From Rhizophagus irregularis (Eukaryota; Glomeromycota; Glomeromycetes; Glomerales; Glomeraceae): DNA of 64,000 bases. Under the pieces are notes generated by a model. It did not search any database, was not told the origin of the DNA, and was given only the letters and a program-made list of their open reading frames with translations. Where the stretch lies: the NCBI RefSeq assembly GCF_026210795.1, contig NC_089456.1, positions 1,118,501 through 1,182,500 of the forward strand, in the 5' to 3' direction. Of this stretch, positions 17,785 through 59,510 are shown in pieces; positions within the stretch are counted from its first letter, which is position 1, and each line of letters starts with the position of its first letter. The translations under genes and the position numbers were made by a program.

Positions 17785-17873
17785 TCCGTCAAATCAATAT
17801 GGGTAGTCCGTAAAGTGGTGTCAAAAATGCGTGTCCGATGTAATAAAAAAATATTCAAACGTAAATACTTTTT

Positions 17874-20446
17874 TTAGTGTTTAATCCGACTAAGTGTATC
17901 TACGTTAGAGTGTTGTTTTCCGGGGCGATCTATGATTTCCAAGTCGTAGCCGTTCAATGTCATTAACCATCGTCCAAGTTTGCCAATTGGATTCGTCATT
18001 TTTAAGAGATATTTTAACGCGGCATGGTCCGTTATGACCGTGAATATTTGTCCATGTAAATAATGGTGGAAATATCGAACGGCCCAAACTACCGCTAGAC
18101 ATTCCAGTTCGGTGACTCCATAATTACGTTCATGTTTATGCAAAGTCCTGCTCGCATAAGCAATAACCCTTTCCCTTTTGAACTCATCTTTCTGGGATAA
18201 TATTGCTCCTAACGCAAAAGTAGAAGCGTCCGTATACAATATAAATGGCTTTTCGAAATTCGGATAAGCCAAAATAGGTGGTGTTGTCAAACACGTCTTT
18301 AGACGTTCAAAAGCATCATGTTGATCCTTTCCCCAAACATAGGGAGTATTTTTCTTTAGTAGTCGATTCAACGGTTCAACTACTGACGAGAAGTTCTTTA
18401 CGAACTTTCGATAATACGAGGCCAAGGCGATGAATCCCCTTAGTTGCGTCAGGTCTCTTGGCACAGGGAACTCTTTTATTACTTTTAATTTTTCAGGGTC
18501 AGTATGAATCCCGGTCCGACTCACCACATGGCCTAAGAATGGTATTTCATCCTTGAAGAAAAAACACTTTTCGGGGCTTAATTTCAATCCGGCTTCCTCT
18601 AAACGCGAAAAGACCTGTTCTAGATGTACCAGATGTTCTTCGAACGTCTTTGATCCTATATTAATATCGTCTATATACACGACGACAAACTGCCAAAGAA
18701 TGTCTCGTAGTACGGTGTCCATAAGTCGCTGAAAAGTTGCCGGGGCGTTACATAATCCAAACGGCATTACAGTAAATTCGTAAGTGCCGAATCTGGTAAT
18801 AAAGGTGGACTTCTCCCGGTCCTTTTGCTCCAATTCGACTTGCCAGAATCCGCTCGCTAAATCAAGGGAGGAAAACCATTGCGTTCCGGACAAGGTTTCC
18901 AACATATCGTCTATTCTAGGCAAAGGATAACTGTCTTTTTTTGTGACGTTATTCAGCTTCCGATAATCAACACAAAGACGCTTCTTTCCGTTTTTCTTTT
19001 CTACTACAACCACAGGCGAAGTCCATTGACTACTGGACGGTACTATTAATCCGGCCTTTAGAAGTCGCTGGATTTCTTCTTTTATAAACAGCTGATTTTG
19101 ATAAGACGTTCGGTAAAACCGTTGTTTGATAGGAGCTGCACTTCCGGTATCAATACTATGTGTGATTGCTGAAGTTCGTCCAAAATCATCAGACTCCCAA
19201 GCAAACAAATTCTGATGTTTGCTCATTAAATCTTCAAACATCTGACGCTGTTTATCATTTAAATTTCCAATATGGAAGGTACCCTTCTCTATTTCTTTAT
19301 ACTGGTAGAAATAATTATTTTCGACCATAGACCCTTCCCTTAAACTCTCTTCAATTTCTTGCGCTTCCTCTTGAGTAACGAACTGGGTATTGCAGAACAT
19401 TTGCTCTTGCGTATTTTCGTTACTCTCACTTTCATATTCTTCCTCTGTTTCATCTGCAACATCTTCCTCGTTTTCCTCTTCGGCATCTTCTTCACTTTCT
19501 TCCTCAACACCTTCCTCTTCTTCTTCTTCGACTTCGGGAGCTTCGATACTAACAATGTGATGTGGCATCTCTTGACATTCGGTAATAACCTCAAGAGTAT
19601 TACCTTTCCATTTAATCGTCATGAGATTGTTATCATAATCTATCACAGCTTTAGTTTTCCGTAGCCAATCGTTACCAACTATAGCAGAATACGAATTGGC
19701 GTCCGTGACAATAGCATCCATTGGTATAATACAATCATGTATCTTTAGTGGTATATCGGATACTGCTCCAAGCGGTCTTCGGCGTTCTCCATTGACGTTA
19801 ATCATCACGGTTTTTGACGCACGCGTGATTTCCATCTCTAAATCTTTTAACAGGGATAAAGAAATAATACTTCCGGCTGATCCGGAATCTACTATCAAGG
19901 GAAATCGGATGTGCTTTATCGACGCTTCACAATATAAGGCAGATGTCTTATTATCATTTGGTCGTGACAAATTTGCAGCTAACAAATCTTCAACCACGTC
20001 CATTTTTTCCTTTTTGTTTTCTTGGACTTCGTCCTTTTTTCTCATTATAGGCTTCCTCAACAACTTATTGGTGGCCATTCGAAGCTTGGGATTCATAGCG
20101 AGCAATTGTCCAACAGATATATCTGCGGGTTGGTCGAAAAGTTGTTGGGGAGTATATGGTTCAACCATTTTTTCTACAGGGGCTAACACCGGTATCTTTC
20201 TTTTGGTGATAGTCTTGACGGTTTTCTTGATTTTCCTTTTATCGGTCTCTTTTTGTTTTTGTTTTATTGAGCGAGTCACAGTTTCTTCTTCAGTTGGTTT
20301 TTCTTTAGCGGTACCTTGTAAAGGATTCAATCTAGACTGGCTTCTCGTTACTCGTTCAGCAGGATAGGCTTCCAGTAGGGTAATATTCGAGGGAATTTGA
20401 CTTTGGCTTGTACACTCACCCTCATGAGGTACGCCATTTAGTTTAA
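17874..20446 (-). CDS. pol: Ty3-type protease, reverse transcriptase and RNase H (pol)
   Basis: The open frame has no ATG near its start and stays open upstream to the gag end, consistent with production as a gag-pol fusion by -1 frameshifting. Counting from a TTG at 20330: basic linker, aspartic protease DSG at 148-150 (LIVDSGSAGS), a long Glu-rich linker at about 267-302, reverse transcriptase about 400-600 with YIDD at 552-555, RNase H with TDAS at 700-703 and ITDHAALK further on, and the end SRIKH at 17874. All catalytic motifs appear intact. Products would process the polyprotein, copy the RNA and degrade the template. The RNase H end lacks a fused integrase, which is in the next ORF. 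Confidence 0.92.
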
Positions 20447-22051
20447 ATGTTGTTCATCGGCTCCATTCGGCACCAGCTGTGCCAACAACTGATGAATTTG
20501 AGCAAGCTGTTCGCCAGTAGAGCCAGTTGTCTGATTCGTTGATCGATTATTGTTATTAGCATTATCACTATTATTAGGGAGTGTTATACCAGTATTTCGA
20601 TTTGGGCAAGTTCGTACAATATGTCCTGGTTGTCCACAGGAATAACATACAACCCGACTTTGACCATTATTTGGTTGTTGTGATTGACCTCCAACCTGTG
20701 CAACATTCCGAGGGTTTCTATTATCATATCGAGGTCTTCTACCGCCAGTACCTAGCTGTTGTACGTGCTTAGTCAATTCCTGAATCGCCTTACACAGTTC
20801 ATCGGATTGAGCATTGGCGCTAGTACCAATAGGCGCGAACTTGGTTATATAAGCACTAACCGCGCTCTGGTCTTGATGTGTTAATTCATAGGCCTTTGCT
20901 CTGTCAACGGCACCGTTCCATGTTTGATCGTTGTGGGGTTTAACTGTGACATAAAGATCAGGCAACAGGCCATTGACGAATTTTCGAGCCTTAATTGCTT
21001 CTGGATAGGCAAATGCATTCGTCTCCACTCTTCGGTATAATTCTTGCAAAGCAGCGGCGTAAGTATTTACGTCTTCTCCCGGTTGTTGTCGGCGTTGCTC
21101 CAATTCAGTTGTCCAAATTTCGACTAAGGTTTGCGTTCGGAAGGCGTTCGGAAAGTTTAAAATAAAATCGGTGTTATTATTATTACCGGTCCACGCAATA
21201 ATTCGTCCAGGATTACCATTATTCAACGCTTGGTTAGAATTCCACCATGTGGACGCGGCTCCTCTTAAGTATGCTGGCACAACCTCCAATTTCCGGGCGT
21301 CCTGTATACCATTTGCATTGCATGCTCGGGTAAAGTCTTCCAACCATGCTACTGGATCTTGATTTCCGCCGTAAAATTGAGGTAGATCGGCAACTCTTCC
21401 TTCTCGGCGTGGTGGATTGTTGATTGCTTGTATGTTTCCCGCCAATGCGTTGTTGACGTTTGGAAGTGCTTGGGTTAACGCGGCGATAGCAGCTCGCAAT
21501 TGTTGAAAATCTTGCTGATTCGGTTGAGCCATATTATTATTCGGTTGATTCTGAAGTAAGGGTTCCAAGTCCGGATTTTGGTCGAGTTCTAGCTCAGCTA
21601 TTCTTGGTAGGGATTCGTCCGAGTCTGATTCAGGTGGAGTTATAAAACTGATTTCACTATAATTATAGGCAATTATAAATATATCTAAGTGAAATCCCTG
21701 TGTAATGCTATATGCGTTCCAAATATCTTGCTGTAAAGTTTCGGAATTAATATTAGGTGTATATGCGTATCGAATACTAAATATTAGATCAATTATAGCA
21801 GTCCAAATATCTTCCCCTTCAACGTAGGATAATTCTTCTAAGTATTGTTGTGTATAATGTGTATAGGATCTAGCAGGGTACTCGACGCTGTACCAGTTCC
21901 AAAAGTTACCAAAATTTTCCGATGGTAATAACTCAGGTGGGTAACAGTATGCGCAAGATCTATCACGATGTCGATAAGTAATATTCGGACTGTTCAATTC
22001 CTGATGTAACCTGTCGTGATTTATATTCTTTTGGAAATGGGTTACAAACAT
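20438..22051 (-). CDS. gag: Ty3-type Gag with CCHC zinc knuckle
   Basis: 537 residues from an ATG at 22051. The central capsid-like region (AVAWLEDFTRAC-type text, PGEDVNTYAAALQELYRRV) is of the retrotransposon gag family. The CCHC knuckle is at C469, C472, H477, C482 (CYSCGQPGHIVRTC), followed by an Asn-rich tail. It forms the particle and binds the RNA. The stop TAA follows directly after the heptamer TTTAAAC, see the separate entry. Confidence 0.92.
   Translation of the reverse strand: MFVTHFQKNINHDRLHQELNSPNITYRHRDRSCAYCYPPELLPSENFGNFWNWYSVEYPARSYTHYTQQYLEELSYVEGEDIWTAIIDLIFSIRYAYTPNINSETLQQDIWNAYSITQGFHLDIFIIAYNYSEISFITPPESDSDESLPRIAELELDQNPDLEPLLQNQPNNNMAQPNQQDFQQLRAAIAALTQALPNVNNALAGNIQAINNPPRREGRVADLPQFYGGNQDPVAWLEDFTRACNANGIQDARKLEVVPAYLRGAASTWWNSNQALNNGNPGRIIAWTGNNNNTDFILNFPNAFRTQTLVEIWTTELEQRRQQPGEDVNTYAAALQELYRRVETNAFAYPEAIKARKFVNGLLPDLYVTVKPHNDQTWNGAVDRAKAYELTHQDQSAVSAYITKFAPIGTSANAQSDELCKAIQELTKHVQQLGTGGRRPRYDNRNPRNVAQVGGQSQQPNNGQSRVVCYSCGQPGHIVRTCPNRNTGITLPNNSDNANNNNRSTNQTTGSTGEQLAQIHQLLAQLVPNGADEQHLN
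20441..20447 (-). promoter_or_regulatory. Candidate -1 ribosomal frameshift heptamer at gag end
   Basis: In the gag frame the last codons read CA(T TTA AAC) TAA, an X XXY YYZ heptamer of the classical UUUAAAC type abutting the stop. Slipping back one base enters the frame that continues open into protease and RT. I could not fold a downstream stimulatory structure by eye. Confidence 0.7.
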
Positions 22052-22078
22052 ACAATAGGTCGGGTAAGATAAAGATTT

Positions 22079-22096
22079 CTGGCAGAAGGCACCAAA
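22079..22096 (-). promoter_or_regulatory. tRNA primer-binding site
   Basis: On the minus strand, the 5' LTR end CATATAACA is followed by TT and then TGGTGCCTTCTGCCAG. A TGG start matches the CCA 3' end of a tRNA. The rest predicts a tRNA ending in GGCACCA; which tRNA is not established. Confidence 0.75.
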
Positions 22097-22713
22097 TGTT
22101 ATATGTCAGTTCTTTATGTGCTTAAAAATAAGCGTTAAATTAAATGTAAGCAGAAGGATTAATAGGGTCGGAAATTAACAGGATCAGCGTAAATCTTATA
22201 CTAATTTTATTAATTCAATGTAAATCCAACGTAAAAATCCGATCAAATGCGAATATGGTATAGCTCTCCAAATAGCCTATACGATCAGACGCAAGTAAAG
22301 GATTAAACTAACCAAATATGAACAATGAATAAAAAAAATAAAGTGTATAAGAAATAACACGAAAAATAAAGTGTATATGAGTTTTAATAATCAATTTTAT
22401 TAATGATTTTTATAAAGGACTGTTCTAAAACTAACTTTATTAAATTCTAATTGTAGTTATTTTTTCTAAAGCGCATTTACACCGTCTTTTTATAACAAAT
22501 TTTTATAAAAAAAAATATCTAATATATCGAACAAATCCGATAAATGCTATATATTTGATAAATGTTATATATTCGATAAATGCTATAAATTCGATAAATG
22601 CTATATATTCGATATATCGAACATGTCGAACATATTCGACATTTACGACATTGATCAACATCACGGGTCCGGTTATATCATGTGATTGCTGCGCGACATT
22701 TTACTGCGTAACA
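22097..22713 (-). repeat. LTR (5' LTR in element orientation)
   Basis: Same 617-bp sequence as 15255-15871. It would hold the promoter driving leftward transcription. Confidence 0.95.
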
Positions 22714-33918: not shown

Positions 33919-33939
33919 ATATAATTAAAAAAAAATCAT

Positions 33940-35010
33940 TTTTTTTTTAATTTTTAATAACAAAAACGTCAAGTCTGACGTTTTTAATTAAAAAAATATT
34001 TTTTTTTGATTTTTAATAACAAAAAACGTCAAGTCTGACGTTTTTAATTAAAAAAATCACTTTTTTTTTGATTTTTAATAACAAAAAACGTCAAGTCTGA
34101 CGTTTTTAATTAAAAAAAATGTTTTTTTTTGATTTTTAATAACAAAAAACGTCAAGTCTGACGTTTTTAATTAAAAAAAATGTTTTTTTTTGATTTTTAA
34201 TAACAAAAAACGTCAAGTCTGACGTTTTTAATTAAAAAAAATATTTTTTTTGATTTTTAATAACAAAAAACGTCAAGTCTGACGTTTTTAATTAAAAAAA
34301 TCACTTTTTTTTTGATTTTTAATAACAAAAAACGTCAAGTCTGACGTTTTTAATTAAAAAAATCACTTTTTTTGATTTTTAATAACAAAAAACGTCAAGT
34401 CTGACGTTTTTAATTAAAAAAATCACTTTTTTTTGATTTTTAATAACAAAAAACGTCAAGTCTGACGTTTTTAATTAAAAAAAATATTTTTTTTGATTTT
34501 TAATAACAAAAAACGTCAAGTCTGACGTTTTTAATTAAAAAATATATTTTTTTTGATTTTTAATAACAAAAAACGTCAAGTCTGACGTTTTTAATTAAAA
34601 AATATATTTTTTTTGATTTTTAATAACAAAAAACGTCAAGTCTGACGTTTATAATTAAAAAAAATATTTTTTTGATTTTTAATAACAAAAAACGTCAAGT
34701 CTGACGTTTATAATTAAAAAAAATATTTTTTTTGATTTTTAATAACAAAAAACGTCAAGTCTGACGTTTTTAATTAAAAAATATATATTTTTTTGATTTT
34801 TAATAACAAAAAACGTCAAGTCTGACGTTTTTAATTAAAAAAAAATCATTTTTTTTGATTTTAATAACAAAAAACGTCAAGTCTGACATTTTTGATTAAT
34901 AAAATCATTTTTTTTTTGATTTTTAATAACAAAAAACGTCAAGTCTGACTTTTTTAATTAAAAAATTTAATTTTTTTTTGTTTTTTAATCAAGTTTTTGA
35001 CATTTTTAAT
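33940..35010. repeat. Hairpin minisatellite, 17 units of about 60 bp
   Basis: Each unit contains AAAACGTCAAGTCTGACGTT, a near-perfect inverted repeat (AAAACGTCA / TGACGTTTT around a short AGTC loop), followed by TTAATTAAAAAA, an A/T run of variable length and GATTTTTAATAACAAAA. Seventeen copies of CGTCAAGTCTGAC are countable; the last ones (34890-35010) are degenerate. The repeat core is nearly invariant, while only the flanking homopolymers vary. Not CRISPR: there are no unique spacers. Confidence 0.9.
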
Positions 35011-40476: not shown

Positions 40477-43357
40477 CACCCGGGGTGATTTAGCAATTTT
40501 TTACCTAGGGTGATTTAACCTGATAATTTTATATATTTTTATATAATTTACCCGGTGATATCACACCTCATTTAAATTTTATTGGCTAATTAGAACAAAC
40601 CCGTCACGCTACGCCGGGGATAAAAGTTGCCCATTAAGTCAAGAAAAGTAACAATGATATGATATATTTTAGAATAGGCTTAGTATTTTAATAATAATAT
40701 TTACAGTATGATAAGGTTAGAAGAAAATAATCTAATAAATTTATATAATTTACATATTTAACTCTATTTCATGGTTTCATTTCTTACTTATTTTTTTTAT
40801 TTTTTTTTATTTTGTTTCTGTTTCATATTTCGGTTTTCACTAATTTATTTCATTTTTTTTTTAATTATTGTAGTTCTTTCGGTTAATTAATAAGGGTATG
40901 TTTTTTTATTTTATTTATTTATTTTATTTATTTTGTTTTTATCTTATATTTCACTACTTACTAACTTCTTTTTTTACTTTATGGTTTGTTTTTTACTTGG
41001 TTTCCTCATGATCATTTTTTATTTTTTTGTCTCTCATCATTTTTCACCTCTCATTATTTGTCTTCCATTATTTTCTATTACATCTTTTCATTTTCTATTA
41101 TTTCATTTTCTCTCCTATTTACTTCCCATCATTTCTTTTGTCTCTCATCACTTCTTTTCATTCCCATCATTTCTTTTTGTCTCCATCACTCCTTTTTATC
41201 TTCCACATTACTCCTCTTCGTCTCCTATCACTCCTTTTCATCTCCCATCACTTCTTTTTGTCTTCCCACTTCTTTTCGTCTCCCATTATTCCTTTCCATC
41301 TCCCGTCACTTCTTTTCGTCTCCATTACTCCTTTTCGTCTCTTCATCCCATCACTCCTTTTTATCTCCCATCACTCCTCTTTGTCTCCCATCACTTTTTT
41401 TGTCTCCCATCACTCCATCTTCCTATCACTTCTTTTCGTCTCCATCACTCCTTTTGTCTCCCATCACTCCTCTTCGTCACCCATCACTCCTTTTCACTTC
41501 TCTTCGTCTACAATCACTCCTTTTAGTCTCCCATCACTCCTCTTCATCTTCCCATCACTCCTTTTCGTCACCCATCACTCCTCTTCATCTTCCCATTACT
41601 CCTCTTCGTCTCCCATCACTCTTTTTCATCATCCATCATGTCCTATTTTTTCCTTTTTGTTTCCTATCACTTCTCATTACTCTTTTTTACTCCCTTTCTT
41701 CTTCTATTACTTTCTATTACTCCATTGTTATTTCATTTTTTTTATTAGCATCTTTCTCCTTAATCATTGTCATTTACTTATCTTTTTTATTTATTGTTAT
41801 TGTTTTTTTTATTTGTATCACTTTATTAAAAATAAATACAGTGATTTTTTTCTTTAAAATCGAAAATGTGGGACTTAAATTTTAAAAATTTCATTTAATA
41901 AGATTATTTTGAACAAATATGTTTGCAAAAAAATTTTTAAAAAATATCTTTGCAATAAAATTTTAAGTTTAACCGATCAAAAATTAGCTAAGTTAAAAAA
42001 ATCTATACGTTTGCCGATCAAATAAATGGCCTTAACTTTTAAGTTTAAATCAGGCACTGAATCATGCTACACAATTCAAGATTATTTATACAGACTTAAT
42101 CTAAACGTTAGAAGATCAACATGTATTTTTTTATTATATTATATATATAGATATAGATATAGATATAGATATAGATATAGATTAATGTGCTGATCATTTC
42201 TTATGTTTGTTTTTTTTTTAAACGTATTCGAATAATCTTTTTTTTCTTTAAGTCTTTCGCTCTTTTGCATGGCACTCAAGGTACGTTTTCTTTCTTTTTT
42301 TTTTATTTGCTTCTTGCATTTTGTTTTCTACTAACTTTATTTCATTTTTTTAGGTCCTTTAGCTCTTTCAGCTTTGCAATTAAGGTATATATGTCCAGCA
42401 CTAAGCCGTTTCTTATTTTTTATTTCATTCTTATATTTCGTTTCTTACATTTTGTATTTCACTCTTTTTAGATCTTTCAGTTCTTCTCTGCAACTACTAA
42501 GGTATGTTTTTATTTTTTTATTTCCGTTTATTTATTACATGTAATTTCTGTTTCCTACTAACTTTATTTCTTCTTTTATTTTATGGGTTTGGTTTTTACT
42601 TTGTATCTCATTTTCGTTCCTTCTCCATTTTTTGTTCTTTTTTGTCTTTTCATTTTTTTGCTTTTTTATTCTTCCCTTCCTTTGTTTTTTTTGTTGTTTT
42701 TTATTTTCTCTGCGTTCCTTTCATTTTTTTTTGTTCCACTTCGTCTCTTTCATTTCTTTATACTACCCTTCATTCCTTTTGTTTTATTCCATTCCCGCTT
42801 CATCTTTTTTATTCCTTTACAAATTACACTACCTTTATTCTTTTTATTCCCCCTTTGCTCCATTTCATCTTTCCTTCATTTTTTTCATTTTTTTTCATTC
42901 CCACTTGATTTTTTTCGCCCTTTCATTTTTTTCACTCCCCTTTGCTCCATTTCGTTCCTCCTTCAATCCCCTTCGTTTCTTTCATTTCCATTCACCTTCA
43001 TTTTTTTTCCTTTTTTTATTCACATATTCTCTTTTCTTTATCATTGTGACTCATTTTTTTTGTTATTTCTATCAAAAATCTAGTATTTTGAATAGTATGA
43101 GTTTGTTTTTTCAATCAATGATTTATGTAATCTATTAAAAATTAATAAATTGCTATAAACTTTTAGTGCGAAAATATTTTAAGCATTGTTTATTATATAT
43201 TTAAAAATTTAGCCAATCAAAAAATTTCAAAAAATTTGCAGAGGATTTATATGCAAATTACGAAGTGAGAAATATTAAAATTTACACCAATCAAATTTAA
43301 TAAATTTAATAAATTAATTGTAAGTAAAATCACCTAGGTGAAATCACTCTAGGTGAT
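40477..43357 (+). mobile_element. Pyrimidine-rich repeat element C with inverted terminal motifs
   Basis: Left end: CACCCGGGGTGATTTAG then ACCTAGGGTGATTTAACC (40477-40520). Right end (43331-43357) carries the inverted partners CACCTAGGTGAAATCAC and TCTAGGTGAT. The interior is almost wholly pyrimidine on the plus strand. It includes a minisatellite (about 41140-41640) of roughly 21-25 bp units like CTCCCATCACTCCTTTTCGTC, an ATAGAT microsatellite (42149-42183), and micro-exon-like units (separate entry). The long overlapping Phe/Ser/Leu ORFs in all three plus frames are composition artefacts. The architecture echoes the mirror arrangement (pyrimidine tract plus micro-exons) in elements A and B. 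Confidence 0.55.
40874..42501 (+). other. Micro-exon-like units with complete splice signals (plus strand)
   Basis: Candidate exons: 40874-40895 (after TTGTAG, before GTATGT), 42253-42280 (after TTTAAG, before GTACGT), 42354-42384 (after TTTTAG, before GTATAT), 42472-42501 (after TTTTAG, before GTATGT). The last three share CTTTCxGxTCTTT..GCAA..(T)AAG. The 73-nt interval 42281-42353 has TACTAAC at 42329-42335, 18 nt before the AG, so it is a textbook fungal intron; the 87-nt interval 42385-42471 is less perfect. TACTAAC also occurs at 40959 and 42556, but no nearby acceptor follows. Confidence 0.5.
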
Positions 43358-45130: not shown

Positions 45131-45675
45131 TTACCTTTTTGCTATGGATCATCAGTAAGATTTTGGGTGGTGTATACTAGTGTTAATTAATGCCAATTGA
45201 CACTAGTGTTGTTTAATGCCTTAAAAACGTAGAAAAACTAACCCTATAATAACCGACACTATCAAAATATGCGTAAAAAAATGGCAAATTAATGTTAACC
45301 AACGCGTATCATATGTTAGTTTATTTATATTGTACAATAAACATATAGTATTAAAAAATACATTTATTTACATGTATATTTTAGTTGAAAAATGCATTTA
45401 AAAGTGTATTTATTTAGCATTATTTATATTAAATTATCTAATTATTTAACTAATGTAAATATCTAATGTAAATCTATATATAATAAAATAAAAAAATTAA
45501 GTTTTCGGAAGTACCAATATCCAGGTACCCGATTTAAAGCCCTTTTGCTGGATAATCGTTTTCACTGATTTTTGTAGATTGTTGGAATAAATCGCACTAA
45601 TCAAAGAAGTCTAATATCACAATTCATCATCTCTGATATTTAATATTTTGCTTCGGAATCATAAAAATTCTATTT

Positions 45676-47215
45676 GAAACCCTACAAAAAAAAAGAAAAA
45701 AAACATTAATAATAATAATAATAAAATAAAATAAGTTTCGTTTCAAAATTCGAAACTTACCATCCAATTGAAGGTGGAACTAATTAAAAAAAAATAATAA
45801 AATAATTCATTTCGCAACTGAATGTTGCGAAACTTATAGTTCAAGAATTCCCAACGCATTCCGGATTCGAAACCTACAAAAGAAAATAAAATAGAAACGT
45901 TAGCTAACGTTTCTAATTAAAATGAAAAAGTGATTATTTCACAATGGGACGTTGTGAAACTCACATTATAAGCGTTTCCAGCATATTCCCGATCTGAAAC
46001 CTACAAAAAAAAACAAGAGATACATTAGTTCACCATTTCTAATTAATGAGACGTTTCAAAAACTGGCCTGGGATTCTGATGTATCGATCGTTGCCAGAAT
46101 TCCCGTACTTTACCAGTATCACCGACAGCGCTAAAGCTTCTTTGCTTAACTATTATCAATCGATCTCATGTAACAATACTATACAAATCGCTTCTTTGCG
46201 TTTTTACAATTCCCCTTCATGCAATTGATGTATTATTGAACACACTCATTGATTGATCGATCCAATTATTTTGCCGGTTTCCAACAATTTCTAGGATCCT
46301 GGTTTCAAAATTGGAATTTGGAACGGATTCTATTGTATACCTAAATAAAAGAAAAAGAAAAAGGAAATGTTAATAAATATTTCCTAATTTATAAAAAAAA
46401 ACAAAAAAACAACGGAAGTTTCATAACGAAATGTACGAAACTTACCATTACAGGACCCGTATCCAATACCGGATATTCTTGAACCTACAAAAAATAAAGG
46501 AGACGTTCAGTTAGAACGTTTCCTAATAAAAAATTTTTTAAAAAAAGTTTTGAGATGAACAGCTCGAAACTTACCATTCCGTTTCCTCCAAAATCGAATA
46601 TGTCGAAAGTACTACAAAAAAAAAAATTATGGAAACATTAGTAACGTTTCCTAATAGAAATGAAAAAAAAAAATAATTTAAAAAAGTTTCGAAGCGAATG
46701 CTTCGAAACTTACCGTTTCCAAATTCCAAGTCAAGCGCGTCAAAGGTCCTACAAAAGAAAAATATAGGAAACGTTAGTAATGTTTCCTAAAAAGAAATTA
46801 AAAAATAAATTTCTTTAAAGATGTTTCGAGGTGAACGCCTCGAAACTTACCCTTTCTTTTCCACAGTCAAATACGCTAAAAGTCCTAAAAAAAGAAGTAT
46901 AGGAAGCGTTAAAAACGGTTCCTAAAAAATAAAAAAAAAAATATTAAAAGTTTCGAAGCGAACGCTTCGAAACTTACCATTTCGTTTTCCCAAAATCGAA
47001 TATGCCGAAGGTTCTACAAAAATATTATAGGAAACATTAGTAACGTTTCCTAATAGAAATTAAAAAAAAAAAAATTTAAAAAAAGTTTCGAGGCGAACGC
47101 CTCGAAACTTACCATTTAGCCCGAAGTAAAACCAAAGGAACGTTCCCTCATAAAATTAAGAAAAAAATAACTTTAAAAAAAAAGTTTCGAAGCAAAAGCT
47201 TCGAAACTTACCATT
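45676..47215 (-). repeat. Array A: tandem micro-exon/intron units
   Basis: Minus strand. About ten units of 93-139 bp. Each runs: T tract, TAG, exon of 34-39 nt, GTAAGT in the stem of a hairpin (AAGTTTCGAAGCG/CGCTTCGAAACTT), A/T spacer, a second hairpin (GGAAACGTTACTAATGTTTC type) that contains the branch-point-like CTAAY, and the next T tract. Example exons on the plus scale: 46575-46611, 46714-46748, 46851-46884, 46978-47013; the intervals between them are 102, 102 and 93 nt. Exons resemble each other (GACCTTTGACGCGCTTGACT, AACCTTCGGCATATTCGATT and so on). The unit near 45860 has lost its GT (ATAAGT), and the stretch 46040-46400 is longer and irregular. Confidence 0.85.
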
Positions 47216-47485
47216 TTGGAAATGGGAGAACGAAAAGGGGAAGGGGAAAAAGGGATAATGAAAGAGGAGAAGGGGAGAACGAAAACGAAAAGGGGAAGGG
47301 GATAACGAAAGAGAAGGAGAAGGGAGAACGAAAAGGGGAAGGGGAGAACGAAAAGGAAAAGGCGAAAAAAAAAAATTAAGCTTTGCTAAAAAAAGCTTAA
47401 TTTTTTTTTTTTCGCTATACCGCAGCACCACAGCAGGCGCAGCGGTAATTACTAATTTAAATCACGTGATACACGTGATACGTAA
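47216..47485 (-). promoter_or_regulatory. Leader module of element A
   Basis: In minus-strand order: CACGTG boxes (TATCACGTGTATCACGTGAT, about 47460-47481), a GC-richer GCTGCGCC..CTGCTG..CTGCGG block, an inverted repeat around AAGCTT (AATTAAGCTTT / AAAGCTTAATT, 47368-47405), then about 140 nt of CCCTTTTCGTTCTCC-type pyrimidine repeats leading into the first GTAAGT at 47211. The same order occurs in element B. The open frame through it has no ATG in this copy. It is a plausible promoter and first exon; transcription is not shown. Confidence 0.5.
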
Positions 47486-48225
47486 ATTTATATAAATAGG
47501 GCTTTCCCCGAACTTTGAAACTTTTCTTTTATAATTTTTAATAGATGTATATATGTGCTTATATATACATATATATATATCTATTAACTTTAATACTTTA
47601 CGAAAAGCCCCTTCTCTATAAATAGGTAGAGGTCATAAAGTACCTATAGGGGGAGAGCTATTGCTGCTCCCTCCGCCTGTTTTATAGTGATAAAAAGAGG
47701 GAGTCTTCAGTAGTAAGGTTTGATGTGTATTTATACACATTAATTATTAATATTGAACAACACAATAAACTACACCTAGTATTAAAAAATATGTATAATG
47801 TTAAAAAATACTAATAAAAATGAGTGTTTTTCTTTACTAAATTGCAGTATAACAAACTTTGTATTTATATGTACTGCTTAATACCATTTAACAATATGTT
47901 AAACTAAATTCTGTGTTGAAAAATATGTATACTGTTAATAAATGGCAATAACAACTAGTGTATTTTTATATTAAATTTTAATATTGCAACATTTTGTGTT
48001 TATTTACATTAATTAATGGCATTAAACTATATTGCATATCATATTAAACTATACTTAACATCAAACAACATAAAAAAACTTGTATAATTATACGTATATA
48101 ACAGCATTCAGTGTTAATCATTACAGTATACAGTATTAAACAATAGGATATATCATATTAAACAACTCCTTAATGTTAATTAACACTATAATTATGTAAA
48201 GCAACACTTTTAAAACTTGCTGATG

Positions 48226-49041
48226 ATGCAATGGCATTTTTCTCTAAAAAGTACCTGATTTTCCTTTACTTCATAACCTTTAGATTATGGCATCATTATT
48301 TTTGTATGCATATAGGCTGATTTATGGAATTAAGTTTTTATATTCAAAAAACTAACTTTATTAAGCAAATGCAAATACAAGTTACATGAAAATGATAGAT
48401 TTACACCAGCTGACATAAATAAAATTGATTTAATTATATTATTTTTTGTTTTTTTTTAATAATATCATTAAAATTAAAAATTTAAATATAATTGTCATGA
48501 CAAAATATTGAATAACTTAACGTGTATGTGTGCTAGATGAATAAATATATATTCATTATTAGAAAGAGGTAATCAAGAGCTATTCACAAACCAAATATCA
48601 CATGAATTGAATCACAAGTTGCTGAATAATTACGTTCAATATATTTATTTTTAACTTTTAACTTTGATCGTTAATATCTTCACATCTAGTAATTCGATAT
48701 GAATGATCTTTTTTTGTCCAGGTAGAGTAGGTTCTGGGCTTTCATATGAATATAAATATATATGTTTAGCATGCATGTATGCCAAGATATTAACGATTTT
48801 GTTAATTGAATAAAACTCTGACACAAAAATTTTTATAATTATAATTCTTACCAAATAATGATCTTTACAGGTATTATTGAGCTCTTTTTACTTTACTTAA
48901 CAAGGTTTTATTTGCTATTTCTGTTTTAAATTGAATAAATTAATAAAATTAATTTTAAAAAGTAATTAACAAGTAGAATAAAATCAGTATAGTAAAAAAC
49001 AAAAAAAAACATCTCAAAAACTCTAAATCATAATTCACATT
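48226..49041. other. Intergenic region between elements A and B
   Basis: AT-rich, with no recognised gene. The minus-strand 67-aa ORF at 48651-48854 has no family features. Confidence 0.4.
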
Positions 49042-49456
49042 CTTTACAGAAACTTTAAGTTTTCAAGTGATATCATTTCAATATCATTTCAATATCATTT
49101 CAATATCGATTTAATATCGATACGATATTGAAATAAAATATTATCACATCGATATTATTTCGATATTAAATCAATATTGAAATGATATCAAAATGATAAT
49201 AGAAATGATATCAAAACAACATCTTTAAGTTTAATTTAAAGATATCATTTCGATATCATTTTAATTATCATTTCGATATCATTTTAATATCGATTTAATA
49301 TCGTAATGATATCGAGGTGATAATACTTTATTTCGATATCATATCAATATTAAATCGATATTGAAATGATATTGAAATGATATCGAAATGATACCGTTAA
49401 GATAAACTTAACGATATCGATTCTATATTGATTAAAAATGGTAAGTTTCTGTAAAG
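49042..49456. mobile_element. MITE filled with GATATC palindromes
   Basis: The ends are inverted: CTTTACAGAAACTT at 49042 and AAGTTTCTGTAAAG ending 49456. The interior is built almost entirely of TCATTTCGATATC, AATATCGATTTAATATCG and their complements, so any part can pair with many others. Two central AAGTTTAATTT/AACTTAACG breaks divide it. No ORF. It sits 36 bp from element B. Confidence 0.75.
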
Positions 49457-50039
49457 TTTTTATTTTGTATATATTTTTACTAAAAAAAAGAACATCAGCA
49501 AGTTTTAAACAGGCGTATAAAGTGTTGAAAAATGCCATGTGTTGCTCAACGCCAAAAAATGTAGGGAAACGAACCCTTTGTCAATCAACGCCACTTAAAA
49601 ATATTGAAAAACGCATAGTGCAACAGTGTTTATGTGTAAAACAATGTACAGTAAAACAATACTAGTTTAATAACGTGTATTTAATGTATAAAAATGCGTA
49701 TATCGATATTAAAAACGCGTATAGCAATGGTAATTTTTAGTTATCGTATGATAGTTAAGTATTAGTTATTTAACATATATATTATTGTATATTATTAATA
49801 TATTTAAAATTTCATTAATTGTTAATTTATTTATAAATAAATACAGTACAATAATACAAATAAATACATTATCTAATATAAAATATCTAATATAAAATAT
49901 ATAAAAATTAATCCCTCTTGTTATAATTGGATTGCCACAGATTTTTAAGCGATCAACGTACTAAATTTCCGTTAACATAGCGCCCCTGGTGATACAACCA
50001 TAACAAGGTGGGTTTCAAATAAGAAAAAACAAAAATTAA

Positions 50040-51835
50040 AAGTTTCATAATTACGAAACTTACTTAAAAATTAGGAAAGTTTCATAACAAAATGTTACGA
50101 AACTCACTAATCTTTAGCCCAGAATCCTAAAGCCTACAAAATAAAAGAAATATGGTGTTAATAATATGTTTTCAATAAAAGAAAATACAAAAATAAGTTT
50201 CACAAATATATGAAACTCACCGTTGACCCAAACTAAAATTACAAAACCTACAGAAAAGAAAAAGGAAACATTAATTAACGTTTCCTAAAAAAAAAAACTA
50301 AAGAAAAGTTTTATGTTATGAAACTTACTCATTTCCCTATAAAGAAAAATCCAACGAAGAAAAAAAGAAAATCCAAGCCGAGGGTCGAAGTAACCATCCA
50401 AGCTGACCTACAAAAGAAAAATCCAGAGACGAAAAGAAAATCTAGGCCTACAAAAAAAAGAGAAATGTTCAATTAGAATGTTAAAAAAAAAAACAAAAAG
50501 AAAACAGAAGTTTCGTAACGAAACGTACAAAACTTACCGTTTTTCAACTTTCAAAATTCCCAGAAATTGAACCTATAAAAAATAAGAGAAACGTTCAGTT
50601 AGAACATTTCTTAAAGAAAAAAAGACAAAAAAAAACAGAAGTTTCTTATGAAACTTACCGTTTAAAGACCCTTTTCCAATATTAAGTTTCCTGAAACCTA
50701 AAAAAAGAATAAAGGAAACATTAGTAAGAGTTTCCTAATAAAAAAAAATTAAGTTTCATAATGAAATAAAACATTACGAAACTTACCCAATCGTTCTTCC
50801 ATTCCAAACTTTCCGAACCTACAAAAAGGATAAAGGAAACGTTTAGAAAACGTTTCATAATAAAAAAATTTAAAAAAATTAAGTTTCGAAGTGAAAGTGA
50901 TTCACTTCAAAACTTACCATATACAAAATCCCGAAGTTGAAGGTTCTACACAAAAAAAAATATAGGAAACGTTAGAAACGTTTCCTTATAAAAGAAATTA
51001 AAAAAAAAATTATTTTTAAAAAGTTTCGAAGCAAATGCTTTGAAACTTACCATTTCTGAATTCCAAGTAGAACACGCCAAAATCTACAAAAAAAAAATAT
51101 AGGAAATATCAGTAATGTTTCCTAAAAGAATTTAGAAAAAAAAGTTTTGAGACGAACGCCTCAAAACTTACCGTTTCGTTTTCCCAAGTTGAATAACCGA
51201 AAAGACCTATAAAAAAGGAAACGTTAGAAACGTTTTCTTATAAAAAAATGAAAAAAAAAATTTTAAAAAGTTTCAAAACAAAATGCTTTGAAACTTACCC
51301 TGTCCCCGTTTTCTAAAGCCAAATACCAAAAGACCTACAAAAAAAAAGGAAACATTAAAAACGTTTCCTTATAAAAAAAATGAAAAAAAAAATTTTAAAA
51401 AGTTTTGAAGCAAAATGCTTCGAAACTTACCCTCTCCCCCGTTTTCTAAAGCCAAAATACCGAAAGACCTATAAAAAAAGAAAGGAAACGTTAAAACGTT
51501 TCCTTATAAAAAAAAATGAAAAAAAAAAATTTTAAAAAGTTTCAAAGCAAAAAGCCAAATACCGAAAGACCTAAAAAAAAAGAAAGGAAACGTTAGAAAC
51601 GTTTCCTTATATAAAGAAAATGAAAAAAAAAATTTTTTCTAAAAGTTTCGAAACAGAACGCTTTGAAACTTACCCTTTCCGTCATTTCCCCTTTTTTCAA
51701 AGAAAGTCCTACGAAGGAAATGTTAGTAATGTTTTCTAATAAAAAAAAAATAAAATTTTTTAAAAAAAAGTATCAAAGCGAAAGCTTCGATACTAGCTTC
51801 AATACTTACTGTTTGAGAAATGGAAAAATGGAACG
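50040..51835 (-). repeat. Array B: tandem micro-exon/intron units
   Basis: Minus strand. About thirteen units with the same plan as array A: TAG acceptor after a T tract, exon of 26-39 nt, GTAAGT or GTGAGT, hairpin, A/T spacer, hairpin with GTTTCTAACGTTTCC or similar. Example exon texts start GTCTTTCGGTATTTTGGCTT, GTCTTTTCGGTTATTCAACT and ATTTTGGCGTGTTCTACTTG. One unit near 51540-51570 has lost its donor and half a hairpin. Units at the low-coordinate end are more diverged. Stem arms change together between units (AAGC/GCTT against AGGC/GCCT). Confidence 0.85.
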
Positions 51836-51899
51836 AAACGAAAGAAAAGGGGGAAGGGGGACAAAAGGGAAATGGAAGAATACCCTGTAACCCGTTTTT

Positions 51900-52050
51900 A
51901 TATTCCATTTTTTGTCTGTAAAAGGCTTATATCTCCGGAATTAATAACCTTATATTACGGAATTTATCAAATTATCTACATTTTCCATAAATGAATCCGT
52001 GAAAGGCTCATTTTATGGGAGTTTTTACAGAAATAACAGATAAAACGTTT
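51900..52050 (-). repeat. Dispersed repeat, copy 2 (inverted relative to 7.1 kb)
   Basis: The reverse complement of this segment aligns with 7136-7275: TTATTTCTGTAAAAACTCC, ATGAGCCTTT(T/C)ACGGAT, TATAAGGTTATTAATTCCGG. It interrupts the purine-rich tract of element B, so it is probably a later insertion. Confidence 0.65.
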
Positions 52051-52329
52051 GGGAAGGGCAGAACGAAAGAGAAAAGGAGGAATAAAAAGGAAAAAGAAAA
52101 GGAAATAGGAAGAATGGAACAAAAAGTGAAGGGGAGAATGAAACGAGAGAGAAAGGAAAGAACGAAACGAGTGAGAAAAGAGAAAACGGAAAGGGAAAAT
52201 GGGACGAAAGTGAAAGGGGTAAATAAAAGAGGAAGACGGGAGGAAAGTGAAAGGGGATAGTGAAAGGGGAAAAATGGGACGAAAGTGAAAGAGGAAATAG
52301 AATGAAAGTGAAAGAAAGAGAAAAGAAAA

Positions 52330-52460
52330 AACGTGAAAAAAAAAATTAAGCTTTGCCAAAAAAAGCTTAATTTTTTTTTTGCCATACCACAGCCGCAGCC
52401 ACGCAGCGATAATTATTAATCCGGTATCACGTGATACACGTGATATAGAGTACATTATGC
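52330..52460 (-). promoter_or_regulatory. Leader module of element B
   Basis: In minus-strand order: TATCACGTGTATCACGTGAT (52426-52445), GCTGCGTGGCTGCGGC, the AAGCTT inverted repeat (52343-52373), then the pyrimidine tract. It matches element A in order and in the CACGTG and hairpin sequences. Here an ATG (52455) opens a 159-codon frame through the tract, but the protein is Phe/Ser/Leu low-complexity and unlikely to be a normal product. Confidence 0.5.
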
Positions 52461-52545
52461 AATGCTTAGTATTGCCAGTATTTGCCGAAATAATTTTTTT
52501 TTAAATATTAATTTTAATATATATATATATATATTTAAATTAAAT

Positions 52546-52618
52546 AGTACAGTGGTTAGATCGTGAGATAATTAATAGTATAAGTTGAGGTGTTTGGTTC
52601 GGTTCCTAAGGTGAGTAA
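52546..52618 (+). other. tRNA-like segment (SINE or tRNA pseudogene)
   Basis: TGGTTAGATCG (A-box-like, 52553) and GGTTCGGTTCC (B box, 52596-52606) are spaced as in a tRNA, about 43 bp apart. The acceptor arms do not pair and the T stem has a mismatch, so it is not a functional tRNA gene. It could be the head of a tRNA-derived SINE. Confidence 0.35.
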
Positions 52619-52875
52619 AAATAATTATAATTTAATTTAATTTAAAATATATAATTAAAATATATATATAATATATGTTAATATACGGTTGTTGAACAAC
52701 AACGCATAATGTGTTGAACTACACATTAGAGTTGAACAACACATATATTAACATTATGCGTTGGTATACTCCAGTATATGGGTATTGATTAATATTGTAA
52801 ATCGTGTTGAACAACTAGCGGGTGTTAATCAACGCGTATACTGGTGTGAATCAACACTTTTCAAACTTGCTGATG

Positions 52876-53668
52876 AAGGAACTAAGGTTAAAAATAAATG
52901 AAAAAAGATTTTTCTTATTAATATAAATTATTAATATTTGTTTTCTTACTTACTGATTAAAAAAAACCTGCTATATATGCCTATAAACTTTTCTAAGTCA
53001 CTTAACAAAAATCTGATTGAAAAGTAATTGAAAAGTGATTGAAAAAGAAAGTAGTTGCCATTGTTATTTTTGAATAAACGTTAAAAAATTTTTTTTTTAT
53101 TTTTTGATAGATTTAGATCATCTAATTATGTAACACATATAATTTAAGCTTTGAAACATAATTCTTGTTAAAATGTGCAAATCTTTATGAAAATCTATTT
53201 TGGCTAATTCCATGAGTTGGCGGATATGGTGATTCGAATACCTTAAACCATTCTTATGCTTTTTCCTTGTCATTGATGTCTACAAACGCATCTAGTTTGA
53301 ATTGTGAAATCAAAAAATTCTCAGAAGTTCGATAGAATGGCAATTCGTTAAAGTTTTTGATTAAATATGTATACCCTAAGGAAATACTGATTTTAAAGGC
53401 TCTGGTAAAGAAATCCAAGAAAAAATCTAACAACAGCATAATCAATTTTAATATATCAGTAATAAAACTAAATAGATTTATTATGATAACAAAAGTAACA
53501 ATAAATAAATCACAAAAGTCTGCCATCATTTCTAATATTATTTATTACTAAAACTGTCTCCAAGTAGTTCCAGTTCTATACACTAAAGAAAAAGAGACAC
53601 CCACTGTGCACATATTGCTATCTTAACTGGTTATTTTTTAATTTAATAATTTCTATATTGATATTTTA
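52876..53668. other. Intergenic region
   Basis: AT-rich. Overlapping short ORFs on both strands at 53254-53551 show no family features. Nothing was recognised. Confidence 0.4.
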
Positions 53669-56700: not shown

Positions 56701-59510
56701 AATTTTTTTATCTTGAAAGCATAATTTAACTCGGTTGAATGCTTCATTATATGATGTTCTAATGTGAGTAATTAAGCTCTGTTTTGTTGGTATATAAAAG
56801 CATTCTTTGAGAAATTGACGAAACTTCTCTTTTTGATTAGATGTATATTCTTTTAAATGTGGTGCTTTTAATTGAATATCAGGATTTTCTTTTCTCCAAC
56901 ATACTTCATCTCAACAAAGACTATGATCATCTGAAAGGTGAGCAACAAGACCATCAATTTGTACTTTTTCTAATTCAGCATCGGATACAGTAATTTTATT
57001 TTCATCAAGTTTTCGTCCACTTGCTGCATAGACACATGAATTGTAATAGGTCATTATCGTATTTTCATATTCTTTCCACATGGAACTTTTTGCTGCAACA
57101 TAGAATAATTAATAATTGAGAATCAGAATAAATAAAACATTTAGCAGTTTATTAATTATTTATAATTAAAATGAAAATAATTACAACTTTTTACATTCTA
57201 TTCTATTACATAACTAATGTAAAATATTTACAATTATGAGTAAAAAATATTTGCAAAAAAAAATAATTTTCTATCAAAAAAAAATTATAATAAAATAAAG
57301 CTTAAATGATCAGCTAGCTGCATACTAATGACAAAAAGATAATCTAAAATTGTTAGTACTTAAGATTGTTTGTTACGTTAAACTGTTACGTTAATATTAT
57401 GTTATTGGTAAAAATACTTAAATTACCTTCAATAACTTACCAATCTTTGCTCTAATATTTTTGCCAATATGTTTTAAATCCGCATATACTTTGCTCACAC
57501 ATGGAATATTATTTAAAGTCTTATTTGAATTTAGATCACCATCTACTCCAATATCTAAAAGTACTTCAGCTGCTTCTAATACTGGAACAATTTTTTCAAT
57601 AATTCGTAATAATATTGCATGTTCCATTTGCCGTGACGTCTTTTCATGATTGCCATGAAAAACTTCATATTCTTGGCCATTTCTTTTTTTTAATTTACGT
57701 GGTTTTTCAGCAGTAGCAAAAGCAATAACAGGTTTGTGATCATATCCTATTATAAAAAAAATTGAATTTGTTTTTATTTTATTAAATATTGACAAAGTCT
57801 TTTTTCTTTTACCATCAAGATTTCCTTGATATATTAGTTCTCCACTAGCCTGGTTTGCATTCCGACAGTGAGACCAAGAGCAATCAAAACTAGTGGGTAA
57901 TATTCTTTCCCCTTTTGCTTTAATATGTGCAATAGCTTTAGTTAATGCAATTTGTGCACTTATCTCCACTTCATCATTTATTTTTTCCAAATATTCATTT
58001 TGTTTATTATGATAATGACCTTTTGATAATTGTGCTGTTATACCTATTATAGAAAATATAGTTTGAAGTTGTTGCCTATTAACGCCACCAACAAGTCCTG
58101 CACCTACTGCAAGAGAAGAGAATTGTGCATTAGGTGATTCATTACTATATTCCGTAATTCCTTGACAGATCTTACACTTAATTTTAATTTGAAGATTATG
58201 ACCGATTCTATGAACATCCAGTTTTTTTTTAGACAAATCAAGGTTGTGCCACGTTAAACAAGGTTGTGTATATATGCTGGTAAGATACTGATCTGTACTA
58301 ACGAATATAGTAGATCCAATATTCGTTTCCTCCAATGTTTTTTGTATCCAATTATTTAATAATTCTTGATCTTTTTCTTCATGTAGCTTATATTTCAAGT
58401 TTTTCATATATTCATTATTGGTCTTAGCTCGCTTGATCCGTTTACGTGATGTGTCTTCTAATTTTTTCAAAGCTTCATATTCAACTGCAAGTGCTAAAGT
58501 TGCTTCTGGAGTTAATTGCATTCCTGGTTCTTTGATTTCAATTCCATGACAAATTATTGGCGGTTGGGAGATTACTGATACTTTTTTTAGTAGTTTTTCT
58601 CCTTTCTTTTGCATAGTAGTAGTTAATTTAGCAATTTTATTTTGAGATTTAGTTGCAGTAATGTTAAAAAGATGTGGATAAATTGAGTTTACTTTTAATT
58701 GTAAATCATAAATTATATTAGGATCACGCAAACCAAGAACGTCAGGAATAGAGATTTCTCCTGATAGTTTTATGTATTTTTTCATGCTTACAAAAAAATC
58801 AGAATTTGCTCCCGAATATATAAGTTCAGACATTTCCACATTTTCATAAATTTCCCAACTATATATAAGGTGTTCTCCATTATTACTTTGAATTTCTAAA
58901 CGTATATATTGACCACAAAGTTTTCCAATTACACAATAACCAGGGAGTAGAGGAACCCATGGAGGAGTTGGTATATTTTCTTTTTTAGTAATGGCACGGT
59001 AATATGGATTAGAGCAATACTCTTTACTTGTTTGTAGTTCAGCATGGATAGAAAGAACTTCTAGTGTTCTGGATGTATCACAAAACATATATCCACCGTT
59101 TGCTCTTCTGAATATTTTCAGTGCAGGATTATAAGTTTGCATATGTTGTACCCAGTTAGGAAGTCTAAAATGTTTTAATAATTGAAAAACTATAGAAAAA
59201 CATTAAAGAATTTCTCAATTTCTTAATAATAAATATTACTTTTCTTGCTTTTTACCCTTAGTTGACGTTGTCATTGTGACTAAAAAACTTTATTTTGCAA
59301 GAAAAGAGTTACAAGACACGGTTAATTAATATAGCCGGTATTTCTAATTTTGTATAGCCAGCTATTTTTAGTACAAGATGCGGTAACTTATTTAGCCGAT
59401 ATTTTTATCTGCACCTCGTGTTTAAGGAGATAAACAAATCTGGGTTTTTGGAACTAAAAACAAATGGACATTTATTATAATAAAAATTAATTATAACGAA
59501 TACTCTACCC
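53768..59510 (-). mobile_element. Kolobok-type DNA transposon encoding a transposase-helicase gene
   Basis: GGGTAGAG starts at 53768 and CTCTACCC ends at 59510; both are flanked by TTAA (53764-53767 and 59511-59514). The inverted match continues inwards to about 45 bp (..TATAATTAATTTTTATTATA..). A TTAA duplication with GG-starting ends fits the Kolobok superfamily; piggyBac also uses TTAA, but the transposase here does not resemble it. 5.74 kb, one spliced gene on the minus strand. It is inserted in the 5' region of the Tc1-like element. Confidence 0.85.
54160..59274 (-). pseudogene. Transposase joined to RecQ-like helicase, 8-exon model with lesions
   Basis: Exons by eye (minus): 59274-59240, 59164-57441, 57092-56437, 56360-55902, 55837-55593, 55528-55029, 54952-54832, 54766-54160. 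All joins use GT..AG and keep frame. N-terminal part: Mutator/Kolobok-like transposase with SFDCSW and VDGDLNSNK (candidate catalytic Asp residues) and HSLC..DEVCW. C-terminal part: RecQ-like helicase with GAGKT (Walker A), DEVH, IIYCPT, IATNAFGMDL, FVQETRRAGRD (usual QxxGRAGRD with Gly to Arg), and a Cys-rich RQC zinc site (CKKQMLAEYF..CAHCDNC). Lesions: TGA at 56911-56913 and 56545-56547, and a stop plus frame slip at 54373-54385. Separate adjacent genes are the alternative; the in-frame splice across 57441/57092 and absence of a second promoter favour one gene. Confidence 0.75.

Follow-up and report, generated by a model that had tools for sequence, protein, structure and literature searches.

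Tandem micro-exon/intron arrays as cargo of two putative PlavakaB-type transposons in Rhizophagus irregularis

Two related elements and their transposon ends

Two related elements, here called A and B, lie close together in the 64-kb window of the Rhizophagus irregularis genome analyzed in this study (the whole stretch from position 1,118,501 to 1,182,500 of contig C28), and each carries on its minus strand a tandem array of very short exons and short introns. All coordinates are positions within this window, and genome-wide counts refer to the 146.7-Mb assembly (146,748,485 bp in 32 contigs). A transposase encoded in this assembly matches R. irregularis proteins, for example at 92% over 61% and at 99% over 40% of its length, and the strain is presumably DAOM197198. 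A first-pass annotation of this DNA had described the pair as elements bounded by terminal inverted repeats and filled with tandem, complete micro-exon/intron units. Both elements were recovered where it had placed them, with flanks AT/AT for A and AA/AA for B, and further copies with the same ends and arrays supported the structural description; what had been overlooked were the hairpins at the donor and branch point, the Plavaka ends and the many arrays elsewhere in the genome. The boundaries and outer parts of A and B are listed below.

45150-48225, minus strand: element A, predicted non-autonomous PlavakaB-type transposon, 3,076 bp, cargo on the minus strand (from its ends and target-site duplication, TSD)
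45148-45149 and 48226-48227, unstranded: left and right TSD of A (AT), flanking bases
45150-45159, plus strand: left terminal inverted repeat of A, CATCAGTAAG, one mismatch to CATCAGCAAG
48213-48225, minus strand: right terminal inverted repeat of A, AAACTTGCTGATG
49493-52875, minus strand: element B, predicted non-autonomous PlavakaB transposon, 3,383 bp, cargo on the minus strand (from its ends, TSD and end-region match)
49491-49492 and 52876-52877, unstranded: left and right TSD of B (AA), flanking bases
49493-49505, plus strand: left terminal inverted repeat of B, CATCAGCAAGTTT
52863-52875, minus strand: right terminal inverted repeat of B, AAACTTGCTGATG
52492-52875, unstranded: subterminal region of B (1-384 in the sense of B), common to the 7.8-kb Plavaka element L053, 85.4% identical
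49493-50012, unstranded: other subterminal region of B (2864-3383 in the sense of B), common to L053, 74.9% over 521 columns

The ends had been thought to be common to both elements. This holds for both ends of B and for the right end of A, which is the exact 13-mer, and the left end of A reads CATCAGTAAGATTTT. The 13-mer AAACTTGCTGATG occurs 165 times in the genome, compared with five occurrences of the reversed control, and longer end patterns with up to two mismatches had 60 matches at one end, of which 52 were perfect, and 57 at the opposite end, of which 43 were perfect; the control had none. The set of 33 complete elements consists of A, B, 28 elements drawn from the first 100 listed places, with paired ends separated by less than 10 kb, and three obtained from 16 further pairs that were sought; about six wider end pairs were left out. 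Matching 2-bp TSDs of nine kinds flank 31 of these 33 elements, where the expectation after shuffling the partners is 5.9 (at most 16 in 10,000 shuffles), the two elements with non-matching flanks being L040 and L058. The CATCA..TGATG termini present in A and B recur in 30 of the 31 other elements, one side of L059 reading TGATA, although the elements were chosen by their ends and this is not an independent test.

Six of the elements are 7.8-8.5 kb long, 96-99% alike and have the same ends. In L033, the one tested amongst them, a Plavaka transposase is encoded (PF18759, 3.9e-34), along with a C2H2 zinc finger. The remaining 27 elements each contain 7 to 21 matches to a profile of the array unit. 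Nine of the 11 array elements compared, B included, match the long element L053 solely in its end regions (1-377 and 7328-7837 of 7,837). At the cut-off used no match to L053 was obtained for A or for L040, and no autonomous partner was found for A. These two elements form a second subfamily with mostly different subterminal sequence; L040 is the closest copy of A (88.5% over the first 1,081 aligned columns), and the outer 102 bp of A align with B at 73%.

PlavakaB elements are defined in the relevant part of PMC12730594 by 5'-CATCA..TGATG-3' ends and a TSD of 2 or 3 bp. On sequence criteria, A and B are non-autonomous DNA transposons of the CACTA clade with PlavakaB-type ends. They share with PlavakaB transposons (CACTA/EnSpm-Mirage-Chapaev-Transib clade) the ends, the 2-bp TSDs and a PF18759 transposase in the long relative tested, but differ in that they have no transposase, a tandem intron array standing in its place. 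The label of miniature inverted-repeat transposable element was rejected on length, as such elements were delimited in R. irregularis as 50 bp to 1 kb in the portion of PMC11075540 that gives the definition.

Two observations concern the ends and surroundings of B. At 52540-52610, on the strand opposite to the array, stand the words AGTACAGTGGTTAGATC .. GGTTCGGTTCC, which we take to resemble the A- and B-boxes of tRNA genes; they belong to the end region common to the Plavaka element L053 and are also found at the same end of L036 and L058. ARAGORN found no tRNA in seven loci, despite the tRNA-like look of this common subterminal region by eye. Between A and B, at 49041-49460, lies a fold-back element with 161-nt arms that are 89% complementary and 1 nt apart; it is built of TATCATTTCGATA-like repeats and its outer ends are CTTTACAGAAACTT-like.

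The array, its splice signals and its spread

The interior of both elements begins, in the sense of the minus strand, with a promoter-like module followed by the array. A and B both have the features that had been noted earlier, namely the pair of CACGTG boxes, the hairpin with AAGCTT and the leader rich in pyrimidines. The exons listed below have both an acceptor and a donor, units without AG or GT having been excluded from exon counts, and several of them correspond to pieces of the published gene model OCT59_018906.

47250-47720, minus strand: promoter/leader module of A, common to the EnSpm-like locus L064, 79.6% identical over 499 columns
47463-47477, unstranded: two CACGTG boxes of A
47366-47410, unstranded: AAGCTT hairpin of A
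47212-47365, minus strand: pyrimidine-rich leader of A (putative exon 1 region; pyrimidines make up 90% of the minus strand), ending CCAAAATG/GTAAGT at 47212
46978-47013, minus strand: A exon, 36 nt
46851-46884, minus strand: A exon, 34 nt
46714-46748, minus strand: A exon, 35 nt
46575-46611, minus strand: A exon, 37 nt
46446-46484, minus strand: A exon, 39 nt
45965-46000, minus strand: A exon, 36 nt, GTGAGT donor
45838-45873, minus strand: A exon-like unit, AT in place of the GT donor
52428-52442, unstranded: two CACGTG boxes of B
52336-52380, unstranded: AAGCTT hairpin of B
51810-52335, minus strand: pyrimidine-rich leader of B (pyrimidines make up 75% of the minus strand), extending as far as the first donor, CTCAAACA/GTAAGT
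51674-51708, minus strand: B exon, 35 nt, contains the start of the published protein OCT59_018906
51431-51468, minus strand: B exon, 38 nt
51299-51334, minus strand: B exon, 36 nt
51172-51206, minus strand: B exon, 35 nt
51051-51083, minus strand: B exon, 33 nt
50918-50945, minus strand: B exon, 28 nt
50787-50818, minus strand: B exon, 32 nt
50659-50697, minus strand: B exon, 39 nt, sites intact, skipped in OCT59_018906
50538-50572, minus strand: B exon, 35 nt
50221-50247, minus strand: B exon, 27 nt
50108-50133, minus strand: B exon, 26 nt, the OCT59_018906 protein ends inside
50117-51685, minus strand: gene model OCT59_018906 (115 aa), mapped in 13 pieces

The leader is about 150 nt long in A and about 525 nt in B. 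The core 27-mer of the AAGCTT hairpin, with up to two mismatches, has 51 matches in the genome and none for its control. In the related elements L036 (about 780-1800) and L058 (about 850-1500, both in sense orientation), the exon array is preceded by about 0.7-1 kb in which the hairpins CGAAACGTTTTTAACGTTTCG and ATCGGAACGTTGGCTAACGTTCCGAT alternate and exons are lacking, a stretch absent by eye from A, B and L062.

Units were counted in two ways. A profile built from 61 seeds gave 429 matches in 31 sequences, of which 191 covering less than 75% of the model were dropped and 238 kept. Arrays of about 10 units in A and 13 in B had been described; the profile matched 10 and 14, and exons complete with TAG and GT are fewer, 6 and 11. 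A strict regular expression (YAG, 20-60 nt, GTRAGT, 50-115 nt, pyrimidines and YAG) found six units in A and nine in B on the minus strand and none on the plus strand of either, compared with means of 0.15 and 0.10 (maxima 2 and 1) in 200 dinucleotide shuffles of each. The two sample exons previously given, 46575-46611 and 46714-46748, are exact.

Across the 238 units, agreement is 97-100% for the aligned letters of TAG, 91-97% for those of GTAAG and 98% for the final A of CTAAC, and 28 of the 32 exon-interior columns (22-53) hold less than 1 bit; this conservation leans towards the splice signals, as the profile seeds were chosen with donor and acceptor present. Introns have a median length of 90 nt (interquartile range 80-95 nt; 186 distinct introns). 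They show the marks of U2-type introns, namely a GTRAGT donor, a T tract and a branch point 20-30 nt before YAG, with CTRAY found in 109 of the 186 distinct introns at all loci studied; the CTAAY site that had been ascribed to every unit is thus frequent but not universal. Where CTAAY was found, its branch-point A lies 22-27 nt before the acceptor (10th-90th percentile).

Most donors open a hairpin, GTAAGTTTCG..CGAAACTT, and many branch points lie in a second hairpin. The inner stems of the donor hairpins vary in sequence and, identical hairpins being counted once, are paired in 86% of cells, compared with 64% for shuffled partners (maximum 71% in 1,000; 70 distinct stems). Such covariation alone is no proof of a role of the RNA, since palindrome correction at the DNA level could also yield it. 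When hairpins were sought without requiring GT, 118 of 128 (distinct with their flanks) had GT before the left arm and 10 a mirrored GT past the right arm, a count in which four loci had been fetched by a GT-containing pattern and the mirrored number was raised by the arrays of L072, L073 and L076, which are on the other strand and were read on the plus strand. Genome-wide, the bare donor hairpin, a pattern without GT, occurs 947 times (control 9) and the GT-prefixed hairpin 652 times (control 0), or at 652 of 1,894 arm ends. The GT stands outside the palindrome and so is not accounted for by symmetry, though the common descent of the units plays a part.

At gathering scores, Rfam gave nothing in five loci; with the threshold relaxed to E<=1, 45-53 kb had 26 matches, all below the gathering score and mostly microRNA-like on palindromes. 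Three U1 RNA genes score above the Rfam cut-off in the genome, and of the two inspected one has ACTTACC where the match begins and the other does not. A spliced-leader gene array was dropped as a candidate, the exons being too variable and the units having their own acceptors. Depletion of TAG and GTA in exons was likewise considered as avoidance of splice signals; dinucleotide content explains it, and it was not used. That the ordinary spliceosome would remove these introns is well supported by these signals and by the published gene model at B.

The arrays are not confined to elements with PlavakaB-type ends. The branch-point hairpin pattern occurs 74 times in the genome (control 0), and some of its clusters have no CATCAG end among the matches listed, for example C11:23,164-23,578 and C16:1,678,282-1,678,668. 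Four clusters of this type were fetched, two of them with flanks, and these two loci, L064 and L065, are both bounded by CACAGGTCGAA..TTCGACCTGTG with 3-bp TSDs, TAT and CAA. EnSpm elements are defined, in the same part of PMC12730594, by 5'-CAC..GTG-3' ends and a 3-bp TSD. The two loci share these ends and this TSD length with fungal EnSpm elements and, unlike the elements described, carry the same kind of array as A and B. Because the array occurs with both types of ends and the promoter/leader module of A is 79.6% identical to that of L064, the module appears to have passed between transposon families, and swapping of the unit between them is supported.

Additionally, nine further donor-hairpin matches outside the fetched transposons (eight isolated in the list and one cluster of three) were examined by eye, and all nine lie in micro-exon arrays and none in ordinary genes, a small sample of the 947. 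The 100 of 652 donor-hairpin matches that were listed form about 43 clusters by eye. By extrapolation, the genome would hold a few hundred array loci. In L072/L076 (G000:C1:3121150-3123150, minus strand), one exon contains a 62-residue WD-repeat piece; C12:2024971, where a frame of 634 codons is open, matches it at 90% identity. We take the source frame to be PWP2-like, and the exon is an apparent single case of a captured host exon.

Amongst seven copies of one subfamily, substitutions amount to 0.4-4.3% in 18 of 25 blocks of 150 columns and to 6.2-11.8% in the other seven, which lie in the leader and the exon-free hairpin array; T tracts show indels all along the alignment, and exons contain indels of 1 nt. 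For small elements, BLAST identities of 70-79% were set aside as misleading, repeats having been matched out of register. In L042, L046 and L048, changes cluster in the middle of single exons with nearly identical flanking introns, as if short conversion tracts or template switches had hit the exons.

Other features of the window were recorded. On the plus strand, 40800-43140 is a pyrimidine-rich stretch with short exon-like units that have no hairpins (e.g., ..TTTTTAG/ATCTTTCAGTTCTTCTCTGCAACTACTAAG/GTATGT near 42470-42505), perhaps an older or different array. A 60-bp repeat in 17.5 copies fills 33929-34989, with the near-palindrome AAAAACGTCAAGTCTGACGTTTTT between T/A tracts. A retrotransposon, probably Gypsy-like, in which a single frame encodes reverse transcriptase, RNase H and aspartyl protease, extends over 15691-22614, and its long terminal repeats may be marked by tandem repeats of one 18-bp consensus, found at 15696-15772 and 22538-22614. 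A Mutator-like transposase frame lies on the minus strand at 57418-59202 (PF20700 at 5.1e-11).

Coding capacity and competing explanations

The joined exons of B match a single protein amongst 5.8 billion at E<=0.01, namely OCT59_018906, whose contig is exactly as long as C28 (3,440,831 bp). All 115 of its residues map in order onto 13 pieces of B, ten of which fall in the listed exons; their ends are no more than about 3 nt from an exon edge, apart from the start and end of the protein itself and one neighbouring edge. Piece 6-11, as mapped, continues across an acceptor, probably as the trace of a very short exon. For DAOM197198, PMC10234402 describes an annotation by BRAKER2 on Illumina reads that was refined with Nanopore cDNA, and OCT59_018906 presumably derives from this RNA-read-guided work.

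The joined exons of A and of B contain stops in every frame, and in OCT59_018906 the homologous exons of B begin at all three codon positions. The lengths of 138 distinct exons leave remainders of 0, 1 and 2 on division by three in 32, 55 and 51 cases, TGA is not depleted in exons (observed/expected 0.90-1.05), and the openness of joined exons is not above that of permuted exon order (p 0.15-1.00 at 15 loci). The best place to seek a coding frame would be arrays of the L075 type, in which several 36-nt exons keep the frame and are open; one such array matches RIR_jg10469.t1, with 100% identity along 70% of the query, and a further nine R. irregularis predictions at E<=0.01. That the arrays are mostly non-coding and make no conserved protein is supported, not proved.

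Our favoured explanation, which we think probable if not strongly so, is that A and B are mobile, mostly non-coding, intron-array transcription units in which selection maintains splicing and not a protein. The cargo would be one multi-intron transcription unit with two CACGTG boxes, a pyrimidine-rich first exon, and tandem exons of about 35 nt alternating with U2-type introns of about 90 nt. In most of these introns a hairpin starts at the donor, a second one often holds the branch point, and TAG follows a T tract. Their removal would be the work of the ordinary spliceosome and would be what selection preserves. Dense and efficient co-transcriptional splicing may then keep the element transcribed and less exposed to silencing by small RNAs, and an element so spared would stay a good substrate for a Plavaka transposase acting in trans. 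Pressure from small RNAs is plausible, because a section heading of the R. irregularis genome paper (PMC10234402) states that young loci produce abundant small RNAs. The benefit of splicing to the element is our inference.

Several observations weigh against this explanation. The step by which silencing would be escaped is one that we infer. In the unit profile, AG is aligned in 221 of the 238 units and GT in 174, with no letters at the donor columns in 36, and CTRAY is found in little more than half of the introns. Three of the 13 pieces of OCT59_018906 lie outside the listed exons (87-98 and 99-101 among them) and the intact exon at 50659-50697 is skipped, the locus tag yielded nothing in open-access papers, and the junctions of the model may have been placed by the predictor and not backed by reads. 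A processed copy, sought in the genome through one exon-exon junction, gave no match. In each of the three frames, fewer exons contain a stop than after shuffling (39-54 of 138 vs 76-79), and the joined exons of B are open for 81 codons, compared with a mean of 45.7 and a maximum of 98 when letters are shuffled within exons. In young copies outside the pair L062/L063, changes number 0 of 166 at GT, 4 of 249 at TAG, 5 of 415 in the branch-point motif and 89 of 3,047 in exons, counts that give weak support for purifying selection because the reference unit had to be intact; in L062/L063, a pair that is probably misregistered, 4 of 24 GT positions are changed.

The arrays could instead be protein genes of the micro-exon type, in which alternative splicing picks exons and frames and so yields variable small proteins. 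The published model at B, the matches of the L075-type array, the scarcity of stop-bearing exons and the long open stretch of B would all fit such genes; the exon lengths, the irrelevance of exon order to openness, the undepleted TGA, the stops in every joined frame and the reading of homologous exons in three phases do not, and exons change at about the rate of the unclassified parts of the same copies. We regard such genes as unlikely. A splicing-factor sponge, tying up U1 or U2 with structured donors and branch points, or a source of small RNAs through the hairpins is less probable again, even with 947 similar donor hairpins in the genome and, in some elements, a stretch of about 1 kb where hairpins with GGCTAAC loops stand without exons. 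Complete introns with acceptors exceed what a sponge needs, and the arms of about 10-14 bp by eye are short for Dicer.

We give little credence to a tandem satellite of palindromes and T tracts that replication slippage and template switching keep alike, its splice-like signals being inherited and rarely used. T-tract lengths do differ between close copies, exon-free hairpin arrays do precede the exon arrays in some elements, and palindrome correction could also give the paired stem changes, but GT and TAG stand outside the palindromes and are among the steadiest letters, GT is found on one side only, and the public gene model uses most of the GT and TAG sites at B. Least probable of all, in our view, is an introner-like element in which the hairpin intron is the mobile unit and the micro-exons are spacers. 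The intron is better conserved than the exon, and fungal introner-like introns and stwintrons are symmetrical and hairpin-forming as described in the pertinent text of PMC8469720. Neighbouring exons look homologous, however, so that exon and intron were probably duplicated together, and the nine examined hairpins outside the fetched transposons were found within arrays and not as single insertions in unrelated genes.

Relation to known systems and meaning

No described element with this plan was found in a limited search of the open-access literature, in agreement with the first-pass annotation. We found no described kind in which such an array is both a cargo and a repeated genomic unit, whereas its carriers, PlavakaB and EnSpm-like elements, are known. 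Schistosome micro-exon genes likewise have many very short exons, but these are mostly symmetric and coding, whereas the exon length here is a multiple of three in 32 of 138 cases, an L075-type array with several open 36-nt exons notwithstanding.

Introner-like elements and stwintrons of fungi are also repeated, hairpin-forming U2 introns, according to the same text of PMC8469720; they occupy separate positions in coding genes, whereas the introns of A and B are tandem units inside transposons. The SP7-like repeat effectors come from the same fungus and have tandem repeats, but in the account of them in PMC11333574 a conserved intron precedes the first repeat, whereas here every unit has its intron, so that the SP7 type does not match, as had been suggested. 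TET/JBP genes, in the relevant part of PMC12730594, likewise provide a case of one cargo in several fungal transposon families; that cargo is an enzyme gene, and here it is an array without a conserved frame.

A broader reading, which is possible but which we offer tentatively, is that the hairpin-intron arrays constitute a new class of mobile module, present at a few hundred loci by extrapolation, moving between unrelated transposon families, taking in host exons, and kept because repeated splicing shields or powers transcription; these would be transposons living by the spliceosome and not by a protein. If junction reads confirm the splicing, the elements would offer a natural, repeated test of the worth of splicing to a mobile element, with some ten introns in each element, exons under no need to code, and many copies of varied age and intactness. 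If true, this would also account for a portion of the unclassified R. irregularis repeats and for some of the short uncharacterized proteins in databases, and would provide a model for the origin and persistence of tandem introns and donor hairpins.

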